Part shown: one piece after another, positions 7,241 through 62,152 of the stretch | Numbering within the stretch: the first letter of the stretch is position 1 | Layout: every line of letters begins with the position of its first letter | Assembly (NCBI GenBank): GCA_021234155.1 | Contig: JAJEKV010000293.1 | Coordinates: 1-64,000 of the forward strand | DNA: 64,000 nt | DNA from: Isoetes taiwanensis | Taxonomy: Eukaryota; Streptophyta; Lycopodiopsida; Isoetales; Isoetaceae | Reading direction: 5' to 3' | Notes under the pieces: model-generated | The model's database searches: none | Told to the model about the DNA's origin: nothing | Seen by the model: the letters and a program-made list of their open reading frames with translations, nothing else | Made by a program: the position numbers and the translations under genes

Positions 7241-9660
7241 CAGATCCGATTAGGCAGCGCCGGAGCTCGCCGGATCTGATGATCTAGCGCCGCCCTGCTC
7301 CTTCCTCCTCGTCCTCTTCTCTACTGAAAATAGAGGAGAAAAGCAAAAACGCAGGCGTATATTCTCGTTTTCGTATGAGCAATTTATGGAATATTCCTCC
7401 CTTCGGGGAGCCCGTCGCCGGCTTTGGTCACAAATAAAAACCTGATGGAATATCTTTCTTGAATGGTATATTCTCCCGACTTAATAAACATAGGGCCTAT
7501 TATAGGTTGTTTCTCGCTTTCACAGGTTATAAATACTGGTGTCCTCTAGGGCCCATAGCCCATTTGGTCTCTATAGCCCATTTGGTCTCTGTGGATGATA
7601 AAATCTCATTTTATTTTTGTGATCTTGACGAGTTGGTATTATGATGATGTGCAATACTGGAAAACTTTTTAGCTCTAGCAAAAAACCTCCTATTGTTCTC
7701 TGACTATTCGGATATTCTAAGTTTCTAAGCGGAAATTTGTATAGCCTTTATATGAAAATTTACTCAAAATTCTCGTGCCATGCACTAACTTAACTGGAAA
7801 GTTTCAATTTTTAACTTTAAAAAGCCTTCTTTGCCCGGACGTTGTCCACAACTATTGGCTTGCAATTAATAGATATAATTATTGTTGTCGTTATGTTAGG
7901 TGTATCTCATAGGCTAGCTGGTCTTATAGATGTTATTTTTAAAACTAGCAATTGAGATAGAAAGTGTTGTTTTGAAATGAACATTTGACTGCCGTCAGAA
8001 TGCCGACGATTACTCATCTCCTCATGATTATAGTTTATGTATTCCCTTCCCATAACTAGAGCACTACTACAAAAGGAACCAACACCTTTCCTCCTCTTCT
8101 TCCTACTTGATATATTCTCCTTTAGAATACTAAACAACTTCTTTTCCTTCCTCCTCTTCTTCATGCCTCTACTTTTTGGACGATAAGACTAATCTGACTA
8201 GGCAGTCAAAAATCTTCCAAGTTGAATCATGCTTGGGTTGTGCTTAGATGTAGGATTGCATTATCATTGGTGGGGCATATGCAAAGGAGTGGCCACATGG
8301 GCCCAAGTGCTACGCTGATACCAGATGTGACTTAGCTTTAAAAGCGCACATGCTTCTTCGTCTTCTGTCTTCTATTAGTTGTTTAAAATTGTCCATAAAC
8401 TCCACTTGGAGAACAATTCCATGGGATGGTCCTATGGAGAATCAATTTTTATGTGTTGGAGCATATGGCTTCATGTTCACTACATGTAAAGTTCATAAAG
8501 TAGCAAAAATTGGTCTACTTTTGAGGTTGGATAAATGTTAAACAAATAAGAGAACTTCATGTACAGAAGCTTCGATTCTAAAATTGATAATTTTTTCCTT
8601 GTCGTCAATTAGTTAATATTAATAGAATGTGTGGTTGTAAATTTCAATGCGAGGAACATGGTCATTTCATACATAAATTGCTGGTCATTATAGCTAAAAC
8701 GTTTCTTAATTCACAAACGACGGATTTAATTTGTTTGGGAAGAATTGTTTAATGCTTTTCACGATGGGGGACTGGCATTTAGAAGGACAAAAGTTGTTTG
8801 TCAATGTATAATATGTAACATTCGCTTTGAATTCAATCTGTGGAAAATGCCAAGAGTGGCAATATTTACTATGCTTTCAAAAACTTATACTATTGTTGGT
8901 AGTACTAAGCTTTCTATATTATAGAGCATTGACTAGCCATTCAAGGGTGATAAACTTAGCATTTTAATAAGTTTGTTGTGATGATACCGACCAGTACATC
9001 TATTGTACTCAATTGGCCCTCCGTCTAATCCATTACCATTGAAATTGATCCAACTCACTAGATGAAGAATATGGAGGTGTTGAATCACCCACTCTATGAT
9101 GGGCGGATCTCTACATATGAGAAGCATATACCGTTGGTTAGAGTAACCCAAACCATATCATAACCTAGTAATAATGGCATTCCTATCATACATTGGGCAC
9201 CGACAACGTAACTCATACCTACATATGGAGATACTAATCTAGGCTTGGTGAGGGTGACTGATTGGGTATGGGTCTCAAGAGATATACATATTGATGGAAT
9301 GTTCATAATATAATAGAATTGATGGTGTATGATATTGCATTGTCTTATGCTTTCTGAACATAATGATAAGTATTTCTTCAAGATACAGTTGTCTAGGGTT
9401 GAGACACTGCACATAAGAATCAGGGTAGATAAATGCATTTACATCTCAATAGAACCGTAGGACCAAATATGAGATATTAAATCGATTATTTGTTCAATGG
9501 TTCAAGGATTAATAAGTGGTCAAATGAAAATCGAGCAGGTTATCTTTTTATATTATAAAGTTTTACCGTAAGTGTTGGACCATGCCCTAATTTAGATGGC
9601 TCAGATTATCAGATTGCATCCGAAGGCCAAGATTTATCGCATGACTTCTCACCACTGTGA
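7241..9660. other. upstream region of SMT2 and gene-poor spacer
   Basis: The first about 200 bases are the likely 5' UTR and promoter of SMT2, which reads leftwards. A 19-bp direct duplication (atagcccatttggtctct) lies near 7554-7591. From 7650 to 9660 the sequence is AT-rich, with only short ORFs lacking known motifs. Confidence 0.5.
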
Positions 9661-9674
9661 TTGGTTATCGCTTT

Positions 9675-10556
9675 GATCTCTTAAGAGGAAAAGGAAAAGG
9701 GAGGATGAAAGGGAAAAATGAAGGTAAAAAGGCACGAGAAAAAAGGGAAGAGGGAAATGGGAAAAGGGAAGGGAAAAAAGGCATGGGAAAAAGGGGAAGA
9801 GGAAAAGGGTGGTGAACGGGAAAGATAGCATGGGAAAAAGAAAAAAATAAGGTAAAAGAAAAGGGGGAGGAAGGAAAAGGAAGGGAAAAAGGGCAACGGG
9901 AAAAGGGGAAGAGGGAAAGGTCGAGGAAAAAGGGGAAGAGAAAAATGGTGGAGAGAAAAAAAAAAGGTATGGAAAAATAAAAAGGGAAAGGAAAAACGAA
10001 AAAGAAGGCGGAAACGGGACAAAGGAAAATAGAAGGGAAAAAGGGCACGAGGAAACAGGAGAGGAAAATGGAAAAGCGGAAGATGGGAAGGGCATGGAAA
10101 AAATTTGAAGAGGAAAAGAGTGAGGAAAAGAAAAAAAAGGGAAAAATAGCATGGAAAAGGGGAAAGGGAAAAGGAAAAGGAAAAAAAGGGGGATAGGAAA
10201 ATGGGAAAAGGGAAGACAGTGGGAAAGGAGGAAAAGAAGCATGTAAAAAAGGTGAGGAAAAATAAATGGACAAAGGTATGGGAAAATAAAAATGGAAAGA
10301 GAAATGGAAAATGAAGGGGGAAAGGAAAGGAAAAGGCACAAAAAAAAAAAGGAGAAGGGATGAAAAAAGAAGGCAAAGGAAAAGGAAAAGGCAAAAAAGG
10401 GGGGGGAAAGGGGGGGAGGGGATGAAAAATGAAAAAGAGCGCGAGGAAAAGGGAGAGGAAAATGTGGAAGAGAAAGAAGAAAAGGGCACGTGAATAATAG
10501 AAGAGGTAAATAGTGAGGAAAGGGAAAGAAAGCAAGTGAAAAAGAGCATGAAAATG

Positions 10557-10592
<36 letters not shown>

Positions 10593-11170
10593 TATAGGGA
10601 AAGGAAAAAATGAAAAAGAGGAAGAGGGCGAGGAAATGAGGCAAAGGGGCACATAAAAAAGGTGCGAAAAAATGAATGGAAAAAGGCATGGAAAAAGAGA
10701 AAGGAAAAGAGAAAAGAAAAATGAAAGGGGGGGAAGGGAAAGGAAAAGTCACGGAAAAAAAGGGAAAAGAGCGGAAAAAGGATGAAAAGGAAGGAAAAGA
10801 AAAAGATAGATGGAAAGGGGGGGAGGAGGAAAAGGGAAAAGCGTACAAGAAAAAAGGGGAGAGAGAAATGGGAAAACGGAGGCATGGGATAAAGAGGAAG
10901 AAGACGGAGAAAGAAAGAAAAGGGGCACATGAAAAAGACGGGGAAAAGGAAACAAAAAAAGGGCGTGAAAAAAGGGAAAGGGAAAGAGAAAAGAAAGAGG
11001 AAAGAGAAGGGGAAAAATGGCACGGGAAAATTAGGAAAAAGGGGAAAGACTGAAAAGGGAAGGGAAAAAGTCCATCAGAAAAAAGTGAAAGGGAAAATGA
11101 AAAAAGGGGAAAGGGAAGGGAATGGAAAAGGAGGGAAGATAGAACAAAAGACAAAGGAAAGGGAAAGGGT
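9675..11170. repeat. 1.5-kb polypurine tract (degenerate GA-rich satellite)
   Basis: The plus strand is almost purely A and G for about 1.5 kb, dominated by runs such as GGGAAAAGG and GAGGAAAA, with a run of more than 30 A at about 10557-10589. RGCAYGGGAAAA-like words interrupt it every 50-75 bases (for example near 9731, 9780, 9828 and 10045), so the tract looks like a decayed satellite rather than a simple microsatellite. The long minus-strand open frames in it, made of Phe, Ser, Pro and Leu, are by-products of composition and are not genes. Confidence 0.9.
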
Positions 11171-11189
11171 GTCGAATACACAAAAACCT

Positions 11190-45879: not shown

Positions 45880-48362
45880 ATGATATTGGGAGAAGACTAC
45901 TTGGCAGCAACCATAATGAAGACATTCCCTATGCCAGATAGGCCGACCATGCGATGCCAAGCATGTGCTGAAATGCCACGGTTGCACGACCTGGTGAGGT
46001 GGCCGATTGCTTTGGTGTTAGTAGACAATGTTGCTGTGTCAACACTCATAAAGACTGCGAAACAGACAGTCATTGAAGCAGAACCCTATGCCATGCAAAT
46101 TGAGCCTGAAAAGGCACCAAAGAGGATGTACAGAATGGTGAACCGGACCCCACGTTCACCTCCTGTGGCCACTAAAGCTGAGAGAAAAATCACAGCAGCT
46201 TCCATTTTAGACTTTAAGTCTTCGCTCTGCTGCATGCGAAGATGTTGCGCAAACTTCTCAACAGCCGAGATTGCGTGTATGCGTAGGTTCTATTGGAACT
46301 TGCGAGCTTCAGACAGGACCACATTTGTTTTCAACATGTTAGACGTCTGTTCACAGAACGGCCTGGTCCAGAAGCTGATGCTAAATAATAAGCAGGTATG
46401 CTTGAAAGCATGGCATAGAGCCTATGGTATTCCAATGTCCACATTCTATAAGTGGCGAAGACTTTTCCTTGCTGGTCACGTGAGTTCTTTGAGCATGGTA
46501 ACACGGGCACTAAAAAATCGAGGCCTCACACTCTCGTAGGAAGGCCATACTCTCTATGTACATAGATGAGAATGCAGAGGCGATGCCCCATGATCGAAAA
46601 ATCACTAATTGAAGGGGTGAGAGAGAATGTGAAGAGGCTCCCCTCTGTCCTAACTAAAAAGGACATTCTTCAAGAGGTGGACGCCAATGTGATGGAGATG
46701 ACGGGCAAGCACATCTCACATTCTTCATTCTCACGTGGGTGGAAGCAAAATCACGCAGAGGTTGCAATAGCAAAGAGGACAGCTTTCTCCAAGTGCAATA
46801 CCTGTATTGTAATAAAAGAGAAAATGGCTAAAACCAGAGATCCACGGGAGAGAAGAGAATTGCAGATGGAAAGGAAGGAACACATGACAGCCCAGATCTC
46901 TTGTAGGAGCTTGTACTGGTCATGGAGAGCTTTGTCCCATCGATCACCGGACCAGGCACTCACTATCATACATGATAAGATGGACCAAAACAAAACTATG
47001 ATTCCAAGACTTGAGAAATTAGCCAAGTCGGTATGGAGAGGTGAACGCTTGAAAGTTAGCGTGACTGGTGCACTGATGCATGGCCATGGCACAGGTGCCT
47101 TAGGATATTTCTCACTCGACCTTTGGAAGGATGATTCAAATTTTCATGTTGGTTCCTTGAATCATGCTATCAAAACACTGGAGGACACTTCCGAAGACAA
47201 TTGGGGCCATTTGAGAGAAGAAGCTCGGCCTGAGGGCATGTGGGGAACTGCACTCCTAAACAGTCTTGAGGGTTGAAGAAAAAAAACAATTGCACCTTGG
47301 GGTAGACTTTGTAGCACCTCTTAAGCAACCAGTAAGACCTTAAGAGGTTACCTAGGGCGGCTCTACTTGCAGCTAGACAAGCTTGCAGGCGAGAACAAGA
47401 ACAGAGATATCTCTTTTCTTATCTATCCTATCTTGTGTGGTTGGGTGTTTTTGATCAAATCTGAGGTTGGCTTCATGATGGTAGGCCACACTCATGATAA
47501 CATTGATGCGCTCTTGGTAACTATTCAACGTTAATGCGCAGGTCGGATGCTCTAACCATTGCAGAACTAATGCAACTCTTCCGAGAATGTAGCACAAAGG
47601 CACCGACACCATACCTTGTTACCGAGGTTCCCGATTGGAAGGGGGTTCGTAAAATGTTACATTCCTCGATAAGAAGGACCGTTTGGTTGGTCACTTGGAG
47701 CCCTTATCATTTTAAGTTCGCATGAATGATGGGTGGCCATTAATGTATTACAAGATGAGACACGGTCATAGAGAATGGTTGCTTTAAAAGGGTATTCGGA
47801 TGTGGAAAGCGATGACAATGGTTTGCCAAAGATACCGATTGGCTCGCCCAAGACCGTCAAGCCATATGCATGCCTCAAGGACATAGGAGCATTGAGGTCG
47901 TCCATTGGCGGGTACATGATGCATTGGGCTAACATCTCCGGGGGCTGGTGTGAACTCGTGGTCTAATACCTACATGAGCGAGGTCATGGACTCTTGGGTG
48001 CAAAGTGATGCGTGTGCTAGGTGAAGTACCCAGGGCAATCCGAAATTGAGAACTTCGGCCTCAAACAAGGCAAGTTTTGCTTGAAGAGCCCCGAATCTAT
48101 TCAGTGTCGATCGATATGACGCTCTTTTTTGCCTATGTAGGACACTGCTAAGGATAAACCCAAGAATGCAGTGGAGATATTTGACCCATACCAAGATGTA
48201 CAGAAAGGTATGTTTCTGCTTGTAAGACCGGCAGATGCATGTCCTACATGGGTAGCCTATGCAGAGGAGGATCCTATACAAGACCCCACTGCCCCTCATT
48301 ATAATGAGGTTTTTGTCTCTTGGTGGGAGCCTGTGGCTAGGAAAGGAACCGCATACGCTCAA
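45880..48362 (+). pseudogene. DUF7869-like gene (putative DNA-transposase relative), copy 2, 5' part
   Basis: Starting at the ATG the first frame ends with SDRTTFVFNMLD ... AYGIPMSTFYKWRRLFLAGH. The next (from about 46566) holds SFSRGWKQNHAEVA, FSKCNTCIVIKEKM, QISCRSLYWSWRAL, IIHDKMDQNKTMIPRLE and VTGALMHGHG. Further right are LQLDKLAGENKNRD and EVGFMMVGHTHDNIDALL, the signature of DUF7869 proteins. The end has FVSWWEPVARKGTAYAQ. The MDQ, QLD and HTHxDID acidic residues are spaced like a DDE set, but catalysis is inference. Frame breaks occur near 46540, 47280 and 47520. The gene is cut at CTCAA by the LTR retrotransposon, and its tail resumes at 61957. Confidence 0.7.
48358..48362. repeat. 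target-site duplication CTCAA, left copy
   Basis: The five bases abut the TGTGACGT start of the left LTR and recur right after the right LTR. Confidence 0.9.
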
Positions 48363-50111
48363 TGTGACGTTCGGGGGCCGATATCGGTCCCGGGGTGATC
48401 GATATGTATTGCCTACACGCCGCATTACACGCCCACTCCGGATCGATGTGTACGCTAACGTGTAGCCAGGTGGGTAGCCCTAGGGGGCAACTTGCCAGAA
48501 ATATGTGCACATTTTCCAATGTACACATTAATGTGGGCACACATTTCCATGTGGACACTTGATGCCAAGTGGGCCATACCCAAGTGTGCAATTAATGTGC
48601 ACATTTTCCAATGTACACATTAATGTGGGCACACATTTCCATGTGGACACTTGATGCCAAGTGGGCCATACCCAAGTGTGCAATTAATGTGCACATTTTC
48701 CAATGTACACATTAATGTGGGCACACATTTCCATGTGGGCACATTTTGCCACCTAGCCATTAAAGGCAAGTGGGCCCATTACCATTATCCCACATGCCTA
48801 AAGGGGATAATTGGAAACCCTAGCCAACCCCTTGTCTATTAAGGGAGGGAAACCCTAACTTGCCCAATTTTCGTTTCTAGGGGGTTTAGAACTCGCTTTG
48901 GCCCTCAATAGCCAAAACCGCCTCCCGAGACTACCGAGGGAATTGCACCATTAGTTTCCCTTGATTCGGCGTTTGGCCGGGATGGTCGAGCTCAGTCGGG
49001 AGGAGCCACTCAAGGATCAGGTATTTGGCCAATTAGATAGTCTAAACCCTATTTCAAACCATAGAATCAAGAGGTTTAGCCTATTAAATTGCCCATAATG
49101 ACCTTCTAGATCTCTAGATACCGACCTCTAACTAAAGAACCTAACTCTATGATGTAGATTAGATATAGTTCTTTAGTTCTTCCGCGGATGATGTATATGG
49201 ATGATGTATCTCTATGAACTCCTTGTATTGGGAAGGGGTAGAGACCTAAAGCTTGGTAGTAGATGCTCCTAGAGTAGCCTCTCTAGCACACTATAGATTC
49301 GCATGTGCACAAGAACCACACCGTTGTGGGTGAAGGGGCAGACCGGCTTAGAAGGAGGTTCGTGTCTCGACTCTTGAACGATCCCTATGGTGTGTTAGTG
49401 CACGGGGATCATTGTGACTAGGTCTAATGCCTTGCCACCTGGCGTGTGGGCAAGGCATGGGCTCGACACTGCGTGAGGCGGTGGATACGGACCTTCCATT
49501 GAGTTCAAGTCGAGTACGGGCAAAGGGCCCTCTAGCCACCGTGAGTCGGCATGTAGATCTCGGAGGGAGTGATCCCTACACGCCCCATCGGAATCGGGAG
49601 ATGAAACCCGTGAATAGCCCTTTTGGCTATGCATCCGTGGCGGCTATAGTCAGGTCCCAACACTTTTCAGCCTACCGCAAAGTGTGTGTGCTGGAGGGGC
49701 GGATGGAGTGGACAACCCTATGCCATGTTCTTATGCCAGCCAAATCCATTGCCATGAATTCTGTCTGAAATGATCTCTGGAGACCCAAAACGTCAGTCAT
49801 TCCCTTGAGTCTGAGCCTTGGGTAGAACCCCCCCATATGTATTGTGCTCGCCTTGTTTATGTAGATGTGATGGACCACCCTTCGAGGTGGCTATGTGCTT
49901 ATGTTATTTACTGACATGTATGTTTACGTTTCCGCAGCTAGGTAGACCCTGAGGGAGACGGGGTAAAATGACCCCTTCACTCTTCCCACTGGAACCCGCC
50001 ACGGTTTTGCGGTGTCATGTGGAGGGCCCCAGATCGGCATGGAGCTGGTATGGGGGATGAACTCCTGTTTGTATACGGTGAGTGCACCGTATACGAGTAG
50101 GGGACGTCACA
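48363..50111 (+). repeat. 5' LTR
   Basis: It begins TGTGACGTTC and ends GACGTCACA, an 8-base inverted terminal repeat around the canonical TG...CA. It contains a 92-bp tandem repeat of nearly three units from 48505 (starts at 48505, 48597, 48689). Confidence 0.92.
48505..48760. repeat. 92-bp tandem repeat inside the LTR
   Basis: Units begin GTGCACATTTTCCAATG at 48505, 48597 and 48689; the matching array in the right LTR starts at 60351, 60443 and 60535. Keeping exactly three units in both LTRs shows the array predates insertion. Confidence 0.9.
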
Positions 50112-50112
50112 G

Positions 50113-50124
50113 TGGTATCAGAGC
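50113..50124 (+). promoter_or_regulatory. primer binding site, initiator tRNA-Met type
   Basis: TGGTATCAGAGC lies one base after the LTR end and is the usual plant primer site complementary to the 3' end of tRNA-iMet. Confidence 0.9.
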
Positions 50125-50316
50125 AATGTTCTTGGTGACCAAGAGCAAAGCACTGGCCATGTTCCCAGTAGTACTAACTTGATAGGATCCTTAAACCTCG
50201 AAAAATGGGAAAAAAAATTTCTCATTTTTTTAGTTTTGCTAAGCTAGTAACAGTTAAAATGAATGAAAACATAAAAATATTAAGAATTGGTGAGCCAACA
50301 TCCAAAAAGTAGGGTG

Positions 50317-50383
50317 GTCTCACACGTCGCGCCAGGACAGGAAATGAGATTTTCATTTTCGGGCTGGGCGCAACGTGTGAGAC
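50317..50383. repeat. 67-nt hairpin A1
   Basis: GTCTCACACGTCGCGCC at the left pairs with GGCGCAACGTGTGAGAC at the right, with one C/A mismatch. An inner symmetric AAATGAGA/TCATTT part extends the fold. Confidence 0.9.
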
Positions 50384-50516
50384 ATTCAGCTTAAACACTT
50401 AAAAAGTCATAAATCACAGTAAAATAACTTGATAATTCTAAATTTAAGCTAAGAATCAGTAGAATTGGCATGTTACATGTTTAAAAAGTACAAAATTTAG
50501 TAGTGGGTCCCACCAT

Positions 50517-50583
50517 GTCTCACACGTCGCGCCAGGACAGGAAATGACTTTCTCATTTTCGGGCTGGGCGCAACGTGTGAGAC
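50517..50583. repeat. 67-nt hairpin A2
   Basis: Same length and stem as A1, starting exactly 200 bases after it. Confidence 0.9.
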
Positions 50584-50658
50584 CTTGCTTAACTAGGTGT
50601 TTTAGATGTTTTAAGCAACCCAAAAAGGTAGTTTAAAAGTTGACCTAAAATCGACCCC

Positions 50659-50666
50659 TATAAATA
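50659..50666 (+). promoter_or_regulatory. TATA box upstream of the H3-like ORF
   Basis: TATAAATA lies 107 bases before the first ATG. A shared word GCGATCTTCC follows at about 50727 and recurs in the second cassette at about 52689. Confidence 0.6.
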
Positions 50667-50765
50667 GACCTAGACCCCTCCCATTTCCACGTTCTTTCCT
50701 TAGAAATTTGCTCGTGCCCGCCAAGGCGATCTTCCGGCGCTTAGCTCCGATCGACGAACCAGCAA

Positions 50766-52039
50766 ATGATGGCCCGCACGAAACAGACTGCTAGGAAGCC
50801 TGAGGAGAGGCGAATCCTCCGGCGCCCAATGATTCCGCCTCTTCGGAGAGAGTCCTTCAAGAACGCCTTTTCCGGAAGGCGAATCTTCCCAGCGAAGATG
50901 CGAGGATCGGATCGGGCCGACCACACCGAGATCATAGACGACGGCCGCCGACATCATGCATCAAATCCTAGAGGAGATCGCAGTGGAGGAGGAGAGGACT
51001 AGGAGCAACGGGGCCGACCGAGCGACCAATAGTTGAAGAGCAGCTCGGGCCAAGAGACCCACCTGCGGGAAGAACAAGGAGAGAAGAGCAGCGGCAAACA
51101 ACACTTAGCCCCGTGAGAAGAAGCCGATCTTGTGCGCTTCATCAGCAAGCACGAAGCCAAAGAGCGCCCGGGAGCAGTAAGACGAAGAGTGGGGAAGACG
51201 ACCCGACCACGGCAAGTAGCCTAAAGAAGAGGAAGGCTAAAGCCATTAAGGCGTGGCAAAACAAAAGGTCGAAGGGTTGGTAAGCGGGCCGGGGATCAAC
51301 ATCAACGAACCATCGGTTAAGAGAACCATCAGGCGAAGAGACCAGCCTTCACCGACGACTCGACGAAGACTACTGCGTGCGACACGAGAGGGAGCGGAGT
51401 TAGGTCAAAACCCCACTTTGTAGAGAAGAAAGTGCTGACAAGTAGTAGCACCTGGCGGAGGTGTAGCACAGAGCGGAGGAGGCCGAGCAGTGCGAAAGCC
51501 CCACCTTTCAGGCGTGGGATAGGGTCAAAGCCCCCGGCCACAGCGGGAGGCATATGTGATAGACCTGGCCAAGGTCTATCGAAGAGGATCAAGGAGCACA
51601 ACACCTACATGGAGAAGTGGGAGGCATACAATGCCTACTACCAGGGAATGGTACCCGGACAATTGAAGGCGGACACAGACGAGTCGGACTTCTGAAGCCA
51701 CCCCACCAAAGCCCAAGCCTCCCCGAGCACCGGGGAAAGAAGCGGCCCGGAGGGAAGAAGTTGGAAAAGCAGAGCCCTCAAAGAAACCGACACTTCGGAG
51801 AGAATTTGGGACTCGATCCCAGGGCACCATTTCAACGTTTGGTCCGCGAGGTCATGCAGGAGTACAACACAGACATGCGCGTGACCGATGAGATGTTGTT
51901 GTGCTTACAGGAGGCAGCAGAGGCAAAAATAGTGCAGCATTTTGAAGATTCAACGGCCTGCACGGTGCACGCAAAGAGGGTCACCCTCATGAGGCAGGAC
52001 ATGTATCTTGCCAGGCACATCAAGGGAGAACGCCCTTGA
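50766..52039 (+). CDS. histone H3-like protein captured by the retrotransposon (frame-broken linker)
   Basis: The ORF opens with two ATGs. The second (50769) has A at -3 and G at +4 and gives [10 protein letters not shown], the exact histone H3 N-terminus, including R2, T3, K4, R8 and K9; S10 is replaced by Pro. A linker of about 350 codons follows, rich in Lys, Arg and Glu with a nuclear-signal-like [11 protein letters not shown]. It is readable only across several frame shifts (stop at 51000, others to about 51820). The C terminus (51824-52039) is an H3 histone fold: [32 protein letters not shown] and [10 protein letters not shown], then TGA. Loop 1 has H3 length, so it is not CENH3-like. 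The region before the fold ([12 protein letters not shown] in another frame) recalls the H3 alpha-N helix. The role is unknown; incorporation into nucleosomes or mimicry of the H3 tail are possibilities only. Confidence 0.85.
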
Positions 52040-52183
52040 ACTCCTTGTAAATAATGAACATTTTTTGTTAATATAAGGAATTTTTGTGTGAATAATGTGC
52101 CTAATCTTGTTTAAATATGTTAAGAAACTGAATTCTAGCTTTTGTTTTAGTCAAATTGGAGTTTTGAGCAAAATTGAGACGAT

Positions 52184-52250
52184 GTCTCACACGTCGCGCC
52201 AGGACAGAAAATGAGATTCTCATTTTCGGGCTGGACGCAACGTGTGAGAC
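52184..52250. repeat. 67-nt hairpin B1
   Basis: Same stem sequence as A1 and A2, with inner GAAAATGAGA/TCTCATTTTC symmetry. It lies about 145 bases after the H3-like stop codon. Confidence 0.9.
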
Positions 52251-52382
52251 CATGCCCAAAAATGCCCAAAACAGCTCCAAATCGACCAAATAAGGGGTCA
52301 ATTCTGCCTAACTCGACGAGTTTAGTGGAATTACAGCCTTAGATCACCCAAATTGGTCAAGTTTAGCCCAATTAGAGCCCAT

Positions 52383-52449
52383 GTCTCACACGTCGCGCCA
52401 GAACAGAAAATGAACTTCTCATTATCGGTCTGGGCGCAACGTGTGAGAC
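52383..52449. repeat. 67-nt hairpin B2
   Basis: Starts 199 bases after B1, repeating the A1-A2 spacing. Confidence 0.9.
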
Positions 52450-52629
52450 CTCCTACCATTTTCTTCACCAAATGATCTCCAAGTTGTTGCAATAGGTTCA
52501 TTAGTTGTTCTTAGCATGCTCAAACCCTAGAAGTAGTCTTCAAACTCGCAATTGCACCCTTTAATAGATCAGAATCACCTAATCTCAGTAAATTCTAGGT
52601 CATCCAAAAATTAGGGTTTCCCCCTTTTC

Positions 52630-52637
52630 TATAAATA
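52630..52637 (+). promoter_or_regulatory. TATA box upstream of the second extra ORF
   Basis: TATAAATA lies 115 bases before the ATG at 52752, at almost the same distance as in the first cassette. Confidence 0.6.
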
Positions 52638-52751
52638 AGCCCCCCGTTTCTCATTTAGCACCCTGCAAGTTTGCTCTCCACTGCTTAGGCGATCTTCCAG
52701 CTCCCTAAGGCGCTTCTGCATCCGTTTGATTTTTCCTTCTTCGCTAGATCA

Positions 52752-53850
52752 ATGGCCACTGCTGACTTCAGGCGATGGTACAGCGCCCAAAGGTGCTATG
52801 TTGCCGAGGCGGATGTCGACGACATCTTCCAAGTCTTTGGGAAGGAAATTGATATCCAAGCCACGCTAAATGCAACCCCAGAATATAGGCAAGTGCTAGC
52901 AGAGTTTCAAGCTAGGTAGGACCCTCCCTTGTTCAGTCCCCCCTTGCATAGGATATTTCGTTCCCTCGCCATCCCTTCAGCGGCTTTGGGCGATGTCCCC
53001 AACATCGCCAAGTACCTAACTAACAAGGCGCAGAGGCTGCCAGACTACATGGTCCTGACAGCCAACAGGACCAAGTATTTCTCTTATACCACCGCCCTAG
53101 CTATTTTCTTATCCCACCGCGCCGAAAACCCGATGGGGGCAACCTCTATCCCTCCGATGGAGGTGGACCCCATAAAGGTAAGAAGAAGAGCGGATGCTTT
53201 TGGCAATATCGGCCGGGAACAAGAAGCAAGAGAAGAAGAAGAGGAGTCGGACGGCGAGGAATACCGCGAGCTCGACTTCGGACGAAGAATGGCGCCAAAG
53301 CCCGAGCGGAGGCATGTCGGCTTGGCGGGCCGTGAGCCGTCGAGTTGCTCCACCACTTGGGTTTGGGCATCACAAGCCTAGCCCCAATCATCATCGACGG
53401 AGGAGGAATATCTACTCCTCGGTGACATTCAAAATCTTCGAATGCAGGGGAGGGAACTCGATTGGATGAGTTGCTCCACCAATCTTGCGAGGCCCGGGCA
53501 TGGGCGGCTTTCCGTCAGGGGGAGTCTCAGACTTCCGCACAAGTCGAAGCCGACACCTACCAGGCGGCGACTTCGACATCAAGCCTCACGGCAATATCCG
53601 AGGCAGATCATGGAGGTGACCCGGGCTGCAAATAGACTAATGGCGGAGGAAGAGTTCCTTGCTTTCTGGGAGCAGATGGGGATGGGAGGCAAGACCACTA
53701 GCATCGATCTTAGGAGTCCCTCAACACCACCTCCAAAGAAGAGGCGGGGAATCGACCTCGGCGAATGCCACTCAACAATCAAGACTAAGGGGAGCTCACC
53801 AAATCGAGGTCCACGATTATCAGTGTGACATAGAGCGAGGAGGCTAAACA
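52752..53850 (+). CDS. second extra ORF of the chromovirus, unknown, with in-frame TAG
   Basis: The ATG gives MATADFRRWYSAQRCYVAE and 55 codons up to a TAG at 52917-52919. The same frame then stays open past 53380 (PSAALGDVPNIAKYL, NRTKYFSYTTALAIFLSHRAENP), so the stop is either a point mutation or read through. Acidic and basic disordered sequence follows. Helical segments continue in shifted frames (LDELLHQSCEARAWAAFRQGE at about 53455 and RLMAEEEFLAFWEQMG at about 53640). No family is recognised. It lies between the H3-like gene and gag, under its own TATA and hairpin pair. Confidence 0.5.
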
Positions 53851-54440
53851 AGTGGGGGAATCATCCGCGACGCGACAACGCGGTCAGTCGGGTACTACGG
53901 TCACGCTGGCTGGATGGGAGAATAAGCGGTGATAATAATCGCAAGTTCAGTCCCGAGGGGAGGAAGGTTGTGTTCATGCTGATTGCACTCTCGAGCTTCA
54001 GCATGCATGCTCATTAGCAGCAAATGTCGACTATGCCGTCCCGGGTGAAGAGTAATGGCACTTGACCTATTCGACTTAGCCATACCCCATCGACGCCAGC
54101 GAGATTAGCGAAGTGACGGACGCGCCCTTACATCCGTGGAAGCCGGGCGAGATACCTTGCGGAAATGCCTGCCGTCAGCAAGCCATCGAGGAACTTGGGT
54201 CATTCAAGCAGGAACGGCCCAAGTTAAGAAGTTCTTGAGGACAACCCGCCCACCGCTGATTTCAAGATTAGTTAGACTCTTGATCCAGGAGATTTTTGTA
54301 CTAAAATATGATATAATATAAATATGATTTACATTTGCACTTTAAATGTTTTGTTGATGTATTTTTGCCCCACAACTATACCAACAAACATAAACAATGC
54401 AAGAGAACAAGTAAAACTAACCATATAGCCATGAATTATT
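53851..54440. other. non-coding stretch between the extra ORF and gag
   Basis: No sustained frame or motif. It is AT-rich at 54290-54440 and could be the 3' end of the second extra transcription unit or a decayed promoter. Confidence 0.4.
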
Positions 54441-55745
54441 TGTGTATGCGGTTAGAGGCCTAGGCTCGGGAGGGAACGACAACGCCAAGACCTTAGAGAA
54501 GAAACAGACCCTTGAGACCACCCCGGCAAGGAACTTATTTGAAGAAATGGAACCCATGACCCCGAGGAGGAAGAGATATCGGATGAGGGCGGACCTTGAA
54601 GCGGATAAAGGCTCACATTAGCCGCTGCAGCGAGGAGCGAGGTTCGGTGGGCAATGCTCAATTGCCACAAGCATCAACTCGAGAAAACAGGAAGGGACAA
54701 GAAGAGGAGCAAGAGAAGGAGATCCCCGGTTCGGATTCCTCCGAGCTCAAGCTCGACTTCAGACTCGACTCAAGAAGAAGAAGAGCGTGGCCAGGACCGA
54801 ACAGATGGAAGACAAAGGAACACTGAAGAGGGAAGGCAGAGGAACACGGATGGACGACAAAGGGACACTGGGGCCTCGACTACGAGAAGAAGGTAGATTC
54901 GACCGGGCAATGTATGGAAGGCCCGGAATCGGAGCAGGTTCGGGGAGAACAGTCGGGGATTAGAAGTGGAGGCATGGCTGGATGAAATGAGTGAGTATGC
55001 GGCAACGCTTTTTTTTTATGGCATGAAGGATAAAGACAAAGGAAGAGTGACAATGTACCAACTTGAAAGGAGCCGCGACGGATTTGGTGGAAGGGTTATG
55101 CAAAGGCCCATGGCTTGAGCAGGATGCTTGCGGTGTTCAAGAAGTTTGCTAAAGCCTTCAAAGCGCCATTACGTCCCAAAGGGAACATAAGTCCAAAGAT
55201 GATGCAAAGAGTTCTACAGTTGCAAAGAAGGCAACAAATGGCCCGTATATACGAGGAATTCATGAGGTCGAGGTCAGGATGTGCCAAAGTTGGGTGAGAA
55301 GCACGCGATATAAAGCTATATTGAGGGGCTGAATGAGGAGATCCAGTAAGCTTGTGAGGGAATAAACCCTAAGACAATGCTCAAAACAGAGTCCAAGGCT
55401 ATAAGCTTGCAAGGAAGCGGGACCTCGAATAGTGGGCGTATGCAGCAGTATTTCCGGGATAAAGGCAAATGATGACAGAAGCTATAGCCCTAGGGCAGCC
55501 GGGCCCGAAGTCCAGCTTAGAGCCCCATATGGTGGCAAACCGTGGGAAAACAAAGGAGAGAAGAAGCAGGTGTCCTTCAAGGACAAGCGGGAGGGGTCAA
55601 ACTACTCCAAAGCAAAGGCGATCCTTTTTGCGGCGATGCCCAAGGAAAAGAGAGCGGGGAGTGCATAGAAAAGCGGCTACGCTTTCAGTGCTTCCAGCCA
55701 AAGCCATAGGACAAATGAACCGCCTCTACGTCATGAGTGCTGGCT
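54440..55745 (+). pseudogene. Ty3/gypsy gag, frame-broken
   Basis: Pieces in several frames give a charged N-terminal part (KKRSKRRRSPVRI, SSSSTSDSTQEEEER). The capsid-like region near 54955-55100 reads LEVEAWLDEMSEY then YGMKDKDKGRVTMYQL and KGAATDLVEG, like plant gypsy Gag. A degraded zinc-knuckle region lies near 55695 (RFQCFQPK-SHRTNEPP). Single-base shifts occur about every 100-200 bases. Confidence 0.6.
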
Positions 55746-55752
55746 AGCGGAG

Positions 55753-55998
55753 TTGGGAGATTGGGACATCCCGCCCCGACGACGACGGCCGAGGAAGGGC
55801 GACTACATTCAAGGTGAGTGTCATATCTTTGCCGCAATAGATACAGAGCAAGCAGAGAGCCAGTATAAAGTAATCTCCACAGTAGGGAAGGCTAATACCA
55901 AGACTCAGGAAGTAGCCATAACTTTGCGTCCCCCAGAATGGTTCAAATGTTGAAGTTGAAACCACTAAAGTCAAAGCCAAGGCCCGTTGTCTTAGCAA
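55753..55998 (+). pseudogene. gypsy protease region, degraded
   Basis: Between gag and reverse transcriptase the frame reads GECHIFAAIDTEQAESQ, TQEVAITLRP and then, shifted, VVLASGAKK. The usual D-S/T-G-A catalytic motif would be at the last position, but the aspartate is not there (A-S-G-A), so the copy is probably inactive. Confidence 0.45.
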
Positions 55999-57267
55999 GT
56001 GGTGCGAAGAAGGCGCAGCGGCAGCAAGAGAATTAACTTCGACATCGACTTGCCATGGATTAATATCCAGATGGGGGCAGAAGTAATGGACATTGGCAAG
56101 TACGACTTGATCATAGGAATGGAGTATCTTGGACCAGCAAGAGCCATCATTGATTGTGGAAAGCGGAAGGTGACCTTCCCAACACCCGACGGCAAGATCA
56201 TCGAGATCACAGGTAAAGAAGTTATTCCCATCATGCAGTGCATGTCTTCTAAGCGGCTGTTCAAGTGCATCAAGAGCGAGCAGGTGGCATACATCTTCAA
56301 GCTTGAGATTGACGAGCCAGAGTCAAAGGAAAGCAAAGAAGACAGGGAGCTCAGCAAGTTGCCGAAGCAAATAGCTCAGCTGATCACGGAATTCCATGAT
56401 CTCTTTCCAGATGAGATCAAGCAGCTTCCTCCTTATAGGGGAGTCGAGTGTGAGATAGCACTCGAACCAGGAGCAAAGCCGACAAGCAAGGCTCCATACA
56501 GAATGACGACGCAGGAGTTGACGGAGCTGAAGAAGCAATTGCAGGAGTTGCTCGACCTAGGCTTCATTAGACCTAGTGTCTCGCCATTCGGAGCGCCCAT
56601 TCTCTTTGTAAAGAAGAAGGATGGCAGTTTAAGGATGTGCATAGACTATAGGCAGTTGAACAAGCACACCATTAAGAACAAGTATGCGCTTCCCAGATCA
56701 GATGACTTGATGGATCAACTCCAAGGTGCGAAGGTCTTCTCCAAAATTGACTTAAGGTCAGGTTATCATCAGATCAGGATAAAGGAAGAAGATATCCATA
56801 AGACGGCCTTCAGAACGCGGTATGGGCATTATGAGTTCACAGTAATGCCTTTCGGCTTATCGAATGCCCCCGCGACATTCATGAGGCTCATGAACGATAT
56901 CTTCAGGGAGTTTTTAGACACCTTTGTGATTGTATTCTTTGATGACATTTTGGTGTATAGCAAATCCCTTGAAGAGCACGTACAACACTTAAGGAGAGTG
57001 CTAGAGAAGTTGAAGAGGCACCAGTTGTACGCCAAGTTGTCGAAGTGCCACTTCGCAACAGAGAAGGTGGAATACCTTGGTCATGTGATATCAGCAGAAG
57101 GAATCTCGACGGATCCTGCCAAGATTGAAGCCGTCATTCAGTGGCCGGCACCGAAGAATGTGCATGAAGTCAGAAGTTTTCTCGGCCTAGCAGGGTACTA
57201 CAGGAAGTTCGTGAAGAACTTTGCTAAGATAGCGGGATTAACGGACTTGACGAGGCGGAGAAAGTGA
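55999..57267 (+). CDS. Ty3/gypsy reverse transcriptase, intact frame
   Basis: This is the best preserved frame of the element, 422 codons without a stop. It starts in the end of protease ([19 protein letters not shown]). It contains the reverse transcriptase blocks [65 protein letters not shown] and the catalytic [10 protein letters not shown] (FFDD at 56935-56946, where Y-x-D-D is usual). The thumb follows ([29 protein letters not shown]). It copies the element RNA into cDNA in the virus-like particle. The frame shifts at 57240, just after the thumb. Confidence 0.93.
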
Positions 57268-58035
57268 AAGATTGGGCGAGCATTGGCACAAGAAAGCTCA
57301 AGCAGTGGTTTGAATTGTTGAAGGAAGCTTTAACAACCGCCCCCTGGGGATCTTAACCGCCGGACCGGAGAAAGATAAGCTTGTAGCAACAGACGCGATA
57401 AAGTAAGATAGCTATAGCAAAGGCTCATGCAAGAAGAGCGTGTAGTAGCATTATGATTCGGGGAAGATGAACGGCGCCGAAATCACGGTACCCACCCACG
57501 ATCAGGAATTGCTTCTTGCGGTTGTCGGGGGCATTAAGAATTTGGAGGCACTATCTTTGGGAAGGAAGTTCGGTTGGATACGCACCATGAGCCTCCAAGA
57601 TGTATTCACGCAACCACACCTTAACCTGAGGCAGAGAAGGTGGATGGAGTTCCTGGAAGAGTATGACTTTGATATAGTCTACAAGCCAGGGAAGCTCAAT
57701 GTGGTAGCGGATGCGCTTTCGAGGCATCCCCTGACAACTAGAGTGCATTGCAATGCAATTTCGACGCTCTCCAGCGACTTTGGTAAGAAGATTGAAGAGT
57801 ACTTGCCAACGGATGTGGATTTCAAGGAAGTATGGGCAAGCCTCTCGAGGGAGGCTAGAACAGATAAAGAGCGGGAAGCCTTCAAACATTATAAGAAGGA
57901 AGGCAACCTGTTATACCATAAGAACAAGTTGTGCGTACCCGAATCATCAGGCGTAAGGAAATTGATCCTCCACGACACGCACAACAGCCCAATAGCTGGC
58001 TCCTCCACGACACGCACAACAGCCCAATAGCTGGC
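57268..58035 (+). pseudogene. RNase H and integrase zinc domain, frame-broken
   Basis: After a damaged start, the frame from 57467 shows the RNase H end (THDQELLLAVVGGIKN, RWMEFLEEYDFDIVYKPGK, NVVADALSRHP). It then enters the integrase HHCC region (LHDTHNSPIAGH). A 35-bp tandem duplication at 57966-58000 and 58001-58035 repeats exactly the HHCC His-Asp-Thr-His codons and shifts the frame. Confidence 0.8.
57966..58035. repeat. 35-bp tandem duplication in the integrase gene
   Basis: Two identical units start TCCTCCACGACACGCACAAC. Thirty-five is not a multiple of three, so the duplication breaks integrase. Confidence 0.9.
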
Positions 58036-58740
58036 CATGCGGGATTCATGAAAACATATTTCAAAGTGCGCAGCAGCGCCTATTATTGGCGGGAATGAAG
58101 AAGCAAGTAGCTCGCTACATCGAGAGAATGCCGGCTATGTCGTGGAACAAAGGCGGAACAACTCAATTCCGGGGCCTTAGAGCCATTATCGGTGCCAAAG
58201 CGCTAAATGGGAGGTGATTAGCTGGATTTCATCACGGGACTCCCCGGGGCGACCGTAAGAGGGAAAAGGCGCTTTGATGGTAGTAGTCGACAAGTTGTGA
58301 AAATGGCACATTTTGTGCCTTGCAGACCACAGATACCGCCATGGACACAAAAGAAAGCTCTTCACCAAAGAGATCTTGGGCTTCATGGCATGCCAAAGGA
58401 GATTATATCCGCGAGGGATCGAAGTTCATGGCGCCTTTTGGCAAGACCTCTTTGGCGACGATCCGGACCAAGCTATCCATGAAACGCGGTATCATCCTCG
58501 ACGGATGGCCAAGCGGAGCGGACCAACAGGATTTTTAGAGGACATGCTACGAAACTATGTGCGGAATAAGCAAGGTATGTGGGAAGAATTTATTCACTTG
58601 CGGAGTTTGCCTACAATAGCACCAAGCGAAATCATCCCAAATGTCATGGTTTATGATCAATTACGGCTATCGGTGCCTAACTCCGGACACTTGGCACAAC
58701 CCAGGTGTCAAAAGTGGAAGTTTCGCAGCAGATGTTGACC
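58036..58740 (+). pseudogene. integrase catalytic core, frame-broken
   Basis: Fragments in three frames give DFITGLPGA (first catalytic Asp region), MAHFVPC, then LGLHGMPKEIISARDRS (second Asp region) and FHGAFWQDLFGDDP. The third acidic residue is in a damaged part. Frame shifts lie about every 60-100 bases. Confidence 0.7.
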
Positions 58741-59318
58741 GATATGCAGCAGCTGGTGGAAGAGGTTCGAGGGTATTTGCTAGCAGCAAGGAGTCGACAA
58801 AAGAGCATCACCGCAAGCATCGAACAGTAAGAGAGTTCAAAGTTGGAGATGATGTATGGCTCAAGATCAAGGTGAAGCAGGCGAAGCTCAGGATCGGAAA
58901 TTGTAAGAAGCTTGCTCCAAGGTGGGCTGGACCTTTCAGAATAGTCGAGAGAGTAGGTAATCAAGCCTACAAACTAGACTTGCCAGCACACCTAAAGATT
59001 CATAAGGTCTTCCACGCGAGTTTGTTGAAGAAGCATACTCCAAGTCCAGACGAAGTCTTGGACACTCCAACGTTGTTGGAAATGACGGAGGAGGAGTTGG
59101 AGATAGTTCCAGAATTGATTCTTGATAAAGCTTTCAAGAAAACAAGGAGGTCGGAATTCCTCCAATACTTGGTCAAGTGGAAGCACTTGCCAGTGGAAGA
59201 CGCGACATGGGTACTCAAGAAATATCTAGTAAAGCAGTACCCACAGTTTATAGAGCAATGGGATGGCAAGGTCATCTCCGAAGAGATCGGCTCAGGCATG
59301 TCGATCTGTGTAGATTAA
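58741..59318 (+). CDS. integrase C-terminal GPF domain and chromodomain
   Basis: An open frame to the TAA carries the GPY/F-type module (GDDVWLKIKVKQAKL, KLAPRWAGPFRIVERVGNQAY, KIHKVFHASLLKKH). A chromodomain follows (59112-59261: ELILDKAFKKTRRSEFLQYL, VKWKHLPVEDATWV, YPQFIEQW). Chromodomains of chromovirus integrases guide integration, many through methylated histone H3 tails. The Y-L-V-K-W and A-T-W-V core is intact. One cage aromatic is unclear (ILDKAFKK), so binding preference cannot be told. Confidence 0.9.
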
Positions 59319-60196
59319 TTCTATGTTTAGTTAAGATTAATCTATGCATGCAACCTATGCTTGGTATGGGTCGCATGCGTTGTTACCGATGATGGGACCA
59401 CTACGGTGATCTCTAGGGCGTGGTGTAATGTCAATGTAGGCATAACCGCGTTTCCGCTTGGGCGAGTGGAAGGTAGATTAGAAAGTCTACCTCTGTCCCA
59501 CGGAAGTAGACGACCTCGAGAGAAAGGAGGTCATGAAGGAATGCACTGATAGGAAAAGCACCTCTAGCCCCATATATGCTTTGATAGGAGGAATCAGGCC
59601 TTCACGCCCCATATACTGGGAAGGACCTATCCTCCACGCTGGCAACTAGGGTGTAGGCATGAGCGGCATATAGGCATATAGGCTATTTGTCTCCACGGCC
59701 ATAATGGAAGATTCACCCTCTTCCTACGCCGGGAGATTAGCCATGCATCCATGTAGATAAGTGGGGTGGTCACCATATAACCAAAAGTTTATTAATAATT
59801 AAATGGTACTAACGTAGTGTCGACACCTTGCAGCCAATAGAGCGCTCGGGAGGGGCAAGGAGGTCGAACTATTTAAGACTTGCAACACAAATTTTGTTGG
59901 AATGTGTTGCAAGGAATGAAGAGTACCTCGGGACGCTAATCTTAATTTTGATAAACTTAATTGTCATGTTAAGTGAATTATTGAGTAACCTGTTTTAATG
60001 ATGTTATGAATTGATAAGTTATTTCATAATATAATGGCGTGATAATGTCCTAAAAATATTACCTTAAGGTAATCTTAATAAATGTGTAAGTATTATAGTA
60101 GTTTATAGTATGTATCAGGTTGATTGCAGGTTAGGATGATCCCAAGGTGGGGAGACCCACGATGCTGCGGACAGCATCATTTCAAGGTGGGGAGAA
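59319..60196. other. 3' untranslated part of the chromovirus with polypurine tract
   Basis: AT-rich and non-coding. The words CAAGGTGGGGAGA appear twice (about 60140 and 60183), the second directly before the right LTR as polypurine tract (AAGGTGGGGAGAA at 60184-60196). Confidence 0.7.
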
Positions 60197-61956
60197 TGTG
60201 ACGTTCCAGGACGATATACGGTCCCGGGGCGATATCTTTATCTTGCCTGCGTCGCAGCATTACGCCCCTCCGCCAATCGACGCACGCTAACGTGTAGCCA
60301 GGTGGGTAGCCCTAGGGGGCAACTTGCCAGAAATATGTGCAACTATTAATGTGCACATTTTCCAATGTACACATTAATGTGGGCACACATTTCCATGTGG
60401 ACACTTGATGCCAAGTGGGCCATACCCAAGTGTGCAATTAATGTGCACATTTTCCAATGTACACATTAATGTGGGCACACATTTCCATGTGGACACTTGA
60501 TGCCAAGTGGGCCATACCCAAGTGTGCAATTAATGTGCACATTTTCCAATGTACACATTAATGTGGGCACACATTTCCATGTGGGCACATTTTGCCACCT
60601 AGCCATTAAAGGCAAGTGGGCCCATTACCAATTATCCCACATGCCTAAAGGGGATAATTGGAAACCCTAGCCAACCCCTTGTCTATTAAGGGAGGGAAAC
60701 CCTAACTTGCCCAATTTTCATTTCTAGGGTTTTAGAACTCTGTTTTGGCTGCCTCAATGCCAAAACCGCCTCAGAACTCTCGAGGGAATTGCACCATTAG
60801 TTTCCCTTGATTCGAGCGTTTTGCCAGGATGGTCGGAGGCTCGGGTCGGGGAGGAGCCACTCAAGGATCGTATTTTTGTAATTAGATAGTCTAAACCCTA
60901 TTTCACCATAGAATCGTGAGGGTTTAGCCTATTAAATTGCCCATAGCAGCCTTCTAGATCTCTAGATACCAGCCTCTAACTAAAGAACCTAACTCTATGA
61001 TGTAGATTAGATATAGTTCTTTAGTTCTTCTGTGATGTATATGGATGATGTATCTCTATGAACTCCTTGTATTGGGAAGGGGGGTAGAGACCTAAAGCTT
61101 GGTAGTAGATGCTCCTAGAGTAGCCTCTCTAGCACACTATAGATTCGGCATGTGCACAAGAACCACACCTGGTTGTGGGTGAAGGGGCCAGACTGGCTTA
61201 GAAGGAGGTTCGTGTCCTGACTCTTGAACGATCCCTATGGTGTGTTAGTGCTACCGGGGATCATTGTGACTAGGTCTAATGCCTTGCCACTGCGTGTGGG
61301 CAAGGCATGGGCTCGACACTCGTGAGGCGGTGGATACGGCCTTCCATTGAGTTCAAGTCGAATACGGGCAGTGGCCCTCTAGTCACCGTGAGTCAGCATG
61401 TAGATCTCTGGAGGGAGTGATCCCTACCTGCCCCATCGGAACTGGGGAGATGAAACCCAGGAATAGCCCTTTTGGCTATGCATCCGGCGGGCTACAGTCA
61501 GGTCCCGACACTTTTCAGCCTACTCTGCAAAGTGTGCACAGGAGGGGCGGATGGAGTGGACAACCCTATGCCATGTTCTTATGCCGCCCAAATCCATTGC
61601 CATGAATTACATGCGAAATGATCTCGGAGACCCCAAGCCGGGTCATTCCCTTGAGTCCGAGCCTTGGGTAGAACCCCCATATGTATTGTGCTCACCTTGT
61701 TTATGCAGATGTGATGGACCACCCTTCGAGGTGGCTATGTGCTTATGTTATTTATCGACATGTATGTTTACGCCTAGCAGGCTAGGTAGACCCCGAGGGA
61801 GGCGGGGTAAAATGACCCTTCACTCTTCCCACTTTGGAACCCGCCACGGTTTGCGGTGTCATGTGGAGGCTGTACAGATCGGCATGGAGCTGGTATGGGG
61901 GATGAACTCTGTTTGTATACGGTGAGTGCACCGTGATACACAGTAGGGACGTCACA
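60197..61956 (+). repeat. 3' LTR
   Basis: Starts TGTGACGTTC and ends GACGTCACA, with three 92-bp units from 60351. It matches the left LTR along its length but with many 1-4 base indels. Confidence 0.92.
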
Positions 61957-62152
61957 CTCAACGAAAGGGGATGGCGGCATAAGAAATGGAGGCCGAATCC
62001 TAATGATGGACCACGTTATCGACCTCTCAAAGCGATAGACTATGCACGGTTAGTCGAACGAAGCCATTATTGGTTTTGATCCCGCATTGGTAGGAATCCG
62101 TGCACGGGAGCTATTGGCTAAAGAGGCCTCAGAGGATGGAGATGAAACTTGA
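61957..62152 (+). pseudogene. DUF7869-like gene copy 2, 3' end after the retrotransposon
   Basis: It starts with the second CTCAA. It continues the interrupted gene with WRHKKWRPNPNDGPRYRPLK and then, shifted, DPALVGIRARELLAKEASED, ending in TGA at 62150-62152. The first block aligns loosely with the C-terminal NWRENHVDPQRRELVE part of copy 1, which supports joining across the insertion. Confidence 0.55.

Follow-up and report, generated by a model that had tools for sequence, protein, structure and literature searches.

A histone H3 gene carried by a chromovirus-type LTR retrotransposon lineage of Isoetes taiwanensis

The element and its histone reading frame

The window analysed here, a 64,000-nucleotide stretch of Isoetes taiwanensis contig JAJEKV010000293.1, contains a 13.6-kb Ty3/gypsy element of the chromovirus type at 48363-61956 (Table 1). 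An alignment of its two 1.75-kb LTRs (48363-50111 and 60197-61956) over 1,800 columns shows 90.8% identity. Both LTRs start with TGTGACGT and finish with ACGTCACA, the TG..CA ends being paired, and CTCAA is present on both flanks, in agreement with the original prediction of an element bounded by LTRs and target duplications. With paired LTRs, duplication, primer site and polypurine tract all present the element is an LTR retrotransposon, and the reverse transcriptase (RT), RNase H and C-terminal integrase chromodomain make it one of the Ty3/gypsy chromovirus type, the Pfam matches running in the order RVT_1, RT_RNaseH, SH3_Tf2-1, Chromo. The primer site is of what we take to be the plant initiator Met tRNA type. 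No Pfam match was obtained for ORF2, for the gag region or for the frame at 58222-58479 in the integrase core region; the stretch of locus L051 (2-3997) that aligns with 52150-56133 of the window contains a 603-aa gag-like ORF. The chromodomain has no aromatic residue at what we presume to be the first and third cage sites.

Table 1. Features of the element in the window (positions are those of the whole stretch)
Feature	Position	Strand	Evidence or remark
Target site duplication CTCAA, left	48358..48362	.	matches 61957-61961
5' LTR (TGTGACGT...ACGTCACA)	48363..50111	+	90.8% identity to 3' LTR
Primer binding site TGGTATCAGAGC	50113..50124	+	sequence; one base after 5' LTR
77-nt hairpin repeat, copy 1	50312..50388	+	z -7.6
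77-nt hairpin repeat, copy 2	50512..50588	+	z -5.8
TATAAATAG box 5' of H3 ORF, putative promoter	50659..50667	+	sequence
Broken ORF1, element-borne H3: tail, linker, fold; frames differ	50766..52039	+	uninterrupted relatives exist
Exact H3 tail (10 residues)	50769..50798	+	translation; genome pattern search
H3 histone fold to H3 C terminus (GERP)	51824..52036, stop 52037-52039	+	PF00125, PDB matches
77-nt hairpin repeat, copy 3	52179..52255	+	z -6.5
77-nt hairpin repeat, copy 4	52378..52454	+	z -7.2
TATAAATA box 5' of ORF2, putative promoter	52630..52637	+	sequence
ORF2, in-frame stop 52917-52919	52752..53378	+	open frames; homologous ORF in L051, 75%
Broken gag region (identified by eye), bounds approximate	54340..55960	+	DNA match 52150-56133 to L051 2-3997
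Protease end and reverse transcriptase	55996..57264	+	RVT_1 E 7e-42; RVP_2 E 0.0028, below its cut-off
RNase H region	57449..58027	+	RT_RNaseH E 1.2e-6
Integrase C-terminal SH3 and chromodomain	58620..59315	+	SH3_Tf2-1 E 4.9e-22, Chromo E 6.4e-10
Polypurine tract	60184..60196	+	sequence, 5' of 3' LTR
3' LTR	60197..61956	+	90.8% identity to 5' LTR
Target site duplication CTCAA, right	61957..61961	.	matches left copy

The H3 ORF is the first coding region 3' of the primer site. At 50766-50798 the codons ATG ATG GCC CGC ACG AAA CAG ACT GCT AGG AAG encode the exact H3 tail, as the original prediction had it, and the frame at 51563-52036 matches PF00125 with an E-value of 1.7e-20 over residues 65-154 of its 158. 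The predicted fold, APFQRLV..KGERP, ends as claimed at the H3 C terminus, where GERP is followed directly by the stop codon. Against solved H3 structures it scores E 2.3e-21, and all 60 listed of the 175 PDB matches are H3. Each protein has only one histone-matching stretch; it is not a doublet of the viral kind, in which two histone folds are fused in one protein. In the window the tail lies in frame 0 and the fold in frame 2 with stops between them, the 158 residues of frame 2 aligning with other copies from about residue 30, and the aN helix, which is present in uninterrupted copies (RALKEIRHFQ..LLIP), is corrupted. The element in the window, now decayed, belongs to a chromovirus-type lineage that carries an H3 as its first ORF, between primer site and gag. 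An AlphaFold model of the fold was poor (pLDDT 53) and no inference was drawn from it; an HMG box considered for the linker was dropped, there being no Pfam match.

The window fold shares 42 of 75 residues with host H3, and over 75 columns it is 99% identical to that of another copy, L034. C110, H113, K115, R116, V117, T118, D123 and L126, whose numbering and roles we assume to be those of H3, are invariant in the alignment of the window-type fold. At positions near the DNA or in the core the window type differs from host H3 by R49K, K53H, R63P, K64R, L65A, P121R, K122Q and R129H, again in what we take to be H3 numbering. In the tail A1-K9 are retained, S10 and the STGGK stretch are absent, and a long linker has been added.

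Several other features of the window deserve mention. The 77-nt hairpins have long stems and are paired 5' of each of two TATA-type leaders, with similar repeats beside other copies; it is possible that they are an RNA or promoter signal. TATA boxes lie 5' of both window ORFs and of some of the type II loci described below and hint at separate promoters for the two ORFs, the motif occurring in 27% of background 400-bp tiles. Outside the element, two minus-strand frames are probably host genes: by eye, that at 2841-4232 encodes a PPR-repeat protein and that at 6119-7249 resembles a sterol methyltransferase. A/G repeats with a strong purine skew make up about 1.5 kb at 9652-11187.

Relatives with and without the H3 tail

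Searching the genome (1,658,258,908 bases in 1,110 contigs) with the fold frame of the window gave 9,534 first-look candidates. The 150 that were scored, the window included, all had E ≤ 8.2e-51; the other 149 are 61-79% identical to the window fold and many lie in open frames of more than 400 aa. Eight window-type copies were examined, six of them picked for long open frames and two with short ones. In four (L031, L032, L035 and L038) an uninterrupted frame runs from the exact tail to GERP, with the tail, a linker of ~340 aa, the aN helix and the fold in one ORF. The middle part had been described as a linker between tail and fold, and this holds good: it is coding in the uninterrupted copies and partly conserved. 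The tail is exact in six of the eight, those of L034 and L036 being out of the fold frame, two residues off in L037 and decayed in L033, so both H3 segments are retained in copies other than that of the window. Directly before the tail all eight carry the leader of the window element (50112 to ~50740-50765) at 80-94% identity. L031 matches the window LTR and leader (48593-50773) at 88% on its 5' side and 52150-56133 at 82.6% on its 3' side, where the H3 is followed by ORF2 and then, by eye, a 603-aa gag-like ORF. The LTR-like ends of this copy are 87.8% identical, and its pol is split by other DNA and largely missing.

The tail was also sought by a degenerate pattern encoding it. Exact sites number 1,051 in the genome (516 + 535), and 2,321 sites are found when as many as two mismatches are allowed; the reversed pattern, as a control, has none at either stringency. 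Taken with the E-values of the fold matches, these counts uphold the view that tail and fold did not come together by chance, and the tail-bearing family is very large. Although AGY, too, is accepted at Arg positions by the pattern, the 100 sites listed use Arg codons, as judged by eye. Canonical H3 genes account for five of these 100 (C97, C105, C445 twice and C668), and a sixth, on C445, has host-like codons. Twelve further sites, mostly picked for differing codons and none of them among the Pfam histone matches scored, were examined. The host-like continuation STGGK follows the tail in none of the twelve. A same-strand H3-fold match lies 3' of the tail in ten, often broken and in L041 only 16 residues long, and no H3-fold match was found behind the tail in L043 and L050. 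Over the matched stretches the folds at these loci share 41-89% of their residues with the window type. Because the sequences past residue 10 differ widely (KPRPG.., KPKKED.., KYHERP.., KVVPPG..), several subfamilies would appear to share the exact tail. Sites picked by an exact tail cannot alone prove constraint on it; the evidence for that is the count of exact sites set against that of near matches, together with the silent variation given below.

A second lineage, which we call type II, has the H3 core without the tail. When the genome was searched with the Pfam histone model, 8,705 first-look candidates came up, and the 150 that were scored all exceeded the cut-off; by coverage and score 15 of these look like canonical host H3, and the eight of the 15 returned as loci are canonical H3. 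The type II sample consists of 20 non-canonical loci picked for score and mostly for a long open frame. All have the H3 core, which in 16 forms the C-terminal end of one frame of 444-494 codons (the H3 frames of L009, L026, L027 and L028 are shorter). The N-terminal part is 315-361 aa long in the 15 aligned and starts, for example, with MPRFKLT, METPKQVY or MANTKSA; no match to the H3 tail with up to two substitutions was found at any of the 20 loci. The first 300 residues of the L011 protein had no relative at E ≤ 0.01 among 954 candidates from 5.8 billion proteins, in a database without the copies of this genome.

The surroundings of these loci are those of related elements. DNA like the window LTR lies upstream in 18 of the 20 (the exceptions being L020 and L022), and the exact core of the primer binding site is found in 16, that of L020 being distant from the ORF. 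RT or protease homology follows downstream in 15; of the other five (L009, L010, L013, L016 and L028), the stretches of L009, L010 and L028 end ~4.2 kb or less past the ORF. The element of L012 and L029 has LTRs that are 93.7-96.9% identical and a target duplication, CAATC. In L010 a 1.2-kb direct repeat (94%) lies either side of the H3 ORF, 5.8 kb apart, and may mark a short element without pol. L023, taken with L030, has a window-type LTR and leader and a decayed MARTK start; at ~3091 these give way to a type II element that lacks the 5' LTR, and then comes another window-type LTR; from its sequence it is a nested or recombinant copy.

Selection on the element-borne H3 and its origin

Among window-type copies the tail shows no replacement differences and 20 silent ones, counted pairwise over six pairs. 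The dN/dS is 0.21 for the linker and 0.02 for the aN helix with the fold (15 pairs each), and 0.018 for the fold alone in 36 pairs from nine copies, the window included, at a median dS of 0.64; copies recur among the pairs, which are not independent, and picking copies by fold score or open frame lowers the dN of the fold, while the tail was part of neither query nor choice. In type II the median dN/dS is 0.041 for the core (44 of 105 pairs usable) and 0.127 for the N-terminal region (30 of 105).

A comparison with RT was made in 10 pairs from five loci, of which three are comparable, three have saturated H3 dS and four, those of L015, have no H3 value. In the three pairs where both were measurable the H3 core has a dN/dS of 0.026-0.041 against 0.045-0.057 for RT. 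In these pairs constraint on the H3 core is no weaker than that on RT; the H3 is thus a gene that selection maintains in the element rather than a passenger. We regard the identity of the element H3 and its retention by selection as close to certain. Among L012, L014, L017 and L023, H3 dS reaches saturation in all three pairs that include L017, where RT dS is 0.33-1.22; from these values it looks as though the H3 cassette is older than pol, or as though pol has been swapped between elements.

In a tree of 97 core columns, with long branches, type II forms one clade (99/98) and the window type another (100/100). Long H3 proteins from ENA contigs, 12 of which are in the tree, fall together with the window type (96/92); they are not themselves one clade. 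AU tests speak against type II and the window type as one clade (p 0.021, and 0.023 in a separate run) and against all element-type and ENA long H3 as one clade (p 0.033, and 0.032 in a separate run). A single origin of all element-borne H3 is thus disfavoured, and two separate captures, one for each type, are suggested rather than proven, since the tree rests on 97 columns with long branches.

The ENA long H3 proteins have the same design, a tail followed by a long linker and the H3 core, and the exact tail lies within the first 20 residues in 100 of the best 120 of 299 matches; their core is nearer to canonical H3 than that of the window type. H53 and C91 are common to the window type and all 12 ENA proteins in the tree, K49 to five and F54 to six. 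H53 and F54 also occur in eight further tail-site loci whose match spans them. C91 was considered as a mark of kinship but on its own is weak, because it is replaced by alanine in four other tail-bearing loci (L039, L040, L044 and L048). A candidate presence of the ENA family in this genome was rejected: L053-L056, four of the P0066 genome matches extending past the H3 core, are tail-less type II and match by the core and a low-complexity linker. The linker of the ENA family was not found at the loci of this genome that were checked. The idea that the N-terminal region of type II is homologous to that linker was likewise discarded, as hhalign aligns the H3 core only. Among 120 listed of 5,476 matches in the protein database the best identity to the window fold is 62%, and scans of IMG/VR found no relative. 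Three proteins, P0085, P0094 and P0012, are 483-751 aa long with very long Pro-rich linkers before the H3 core.

Possible function and comparison with known systems

Since both lineages keep the fold and only one keeps the tail, the fold would seem to carry the function they share, and it is from this common retention that we infer pairing with host H4 and entry into nucleosomes. The conserved fold would pair with host H4, and the element H3 would be incorporated into nucleosomes, most plausibly on element DNA or at target sites; that it enters nucleosomes at all we consider rather probable. The substitutions of the window type near the DNA or in the core, given above, speak against such entry. 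In nucleosomes the N terminus of the element protein would stand in for that of host H3: the window lineage would present the exact first nine residues, with K4 and K9 in context, to the readers and writers of the host, and the sister lineage would have a new N-terminal region instead of the tail. The likely gain would be a difference in how the chromatin is marked, read or silenced, leading to escape from silencing or to a choice of integration site. The reading we favour, with a fair measure of confidence, is that the element H3 is a nucleosomal variant altering how element chromatin is read. The retention of a working H3 by selection suggests that the elements build or disguise chromatin for their own use.

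A more specific and doubtful extension is that the element H3 is placed in nucleosomes at chosen sites as a landing pad. The marks on K4 and K9 of a tail without S10 could not be switched by S10 phosphorylation, and the type II-like chromodomain would read this variant and not host H3. That the chromodomain of the window reads the element H3 is a speculation from sequence. If the extension is true, the element writes and reads its own chromatin code, and the tail-less sister lineage does likewise with an N-terminal region of its own.

An unlikely alternative is that the protein is a histone mimic or decoy which acts outside nucleosomes, its ARTKQTARK tail competing for the writers, readers and erasers of H3K4 and H3K9 so that silencing is blunted. 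This would fit the exact tail with its purely silent variation and the variable sequence past residue 10 among the tail-bearing subfamilies, but the fold is strongly constrained too, and a second lineage retains it without the tail. Somewhat less likely still is a role in packaging or before integration, in which H3 together with host H4 would coat the element cDNA or aid nuclear entry. The H3 ORF precedes gag, the linker has by eye an NLS-like stretch (KKRKAKAIK), and histones are encoded by DNA viruses (PMC9145170, in the text available); against this, the genome in the particle is RNA, and a histone could act only after reverse transcription. It is very improbable that the element picked up a host H3 which does nothing for it: many copies are indeed broken, that of the window among them, yet a dN/dS of ~0.02 at a silent divergence of ~0.6 and a fold retained in each of two lineages would not be expected of a passenger. 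An assembly artefact, or a separate host H3 gene adjoining or joined to the element, is hardly conceivable, for although the probable source assembly is nanopore-based (PMC8566536, in the text available), so that errors may account for small indels and for some of the frame breaks, such a reading is contradicted by the element leader before the tail at all eight window-type loci, by the further copy between LTRs, by window-like LTR DNA upstream of 18 of the 20 type II loci and by the target duplications flanking both the window element and that of L012/L029.

The capture of H3 by an LTR retrotransposon, as originally proposed, is thus supported by the four uninterrupted ORFs, the eight leaders, the position of L031 between LTRs and the purifying selection. 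Core histones belong to the silencing of transposons by the host, and an H3 taken over by a retrotransposon lineage, perhaps more than once, and retained under selection turns this round. More than 1,000 H3-tail sites and many H3 variants, with the tail present or replaced, make up a natural set from which it may be learned which parts of H3 a parasite needs. The nucleosomal variant that we favour is also a candidate for the partner that type II retrotransposon chromodomains have so far lacked.

The element has LTRs, a Met-tRNA-type primer site, RT, RNase H and a chromodomain at the C terminus of the integrase like the plant chromoviruses in the available text of a survey of plant LTR elements (PMC6317226). 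In that text type II chromodomains are without the first and third cage aromatics and without identified partners, the cages are otherwise preserved in non-seed plants, and extra ORFs are reported in Ty3/gypsy elements; it mentions no histone ORF, the word histone occurring only for the chromodomain cage (PMC6317226). The histones of DNA viruses and bracoviruses, as covered by the accessible part of a review (PMC9145170), are likewise core histones from a virus-like element; they differ from the present H3, which is carried by an LTR retrotransposon and has an exact tail and a long linker. The strings retrotranspos and retrovir have no hits in the same part of the review, and its two passages with transpos are not on a transposon-borne histone. 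The word histone is absent from the main text, as available, of two Isoetes genome papers (one of them PMC8566536). A literature search across titles and the beginnings of abstracts, with subscription papers and bioRxiv mostly outside its scope, found no description of a retrotransposon-encoded histone.

The chassis is therefore of a known kind, and an LTR retrotransposon with a core histone of its own is, as far as could be seen, undescribed. Viral histone mimics are short motifs resembling the H3 tail, such as ARSK of influenza NS1; here too a protein of a parasite displays the H3 tail, in this case the exact tail on a full H3 fold. CENH3 has a longer loop 1 and a non-canonical tail. With CENH3/CENP-A the element H3 shares a divergent H3 fold and an extended N terminus; it differs from them in that its fold has no insertion relative to host H3, in loop 1 or elsewhere, in its canonical tail and in being borne by a transposon.
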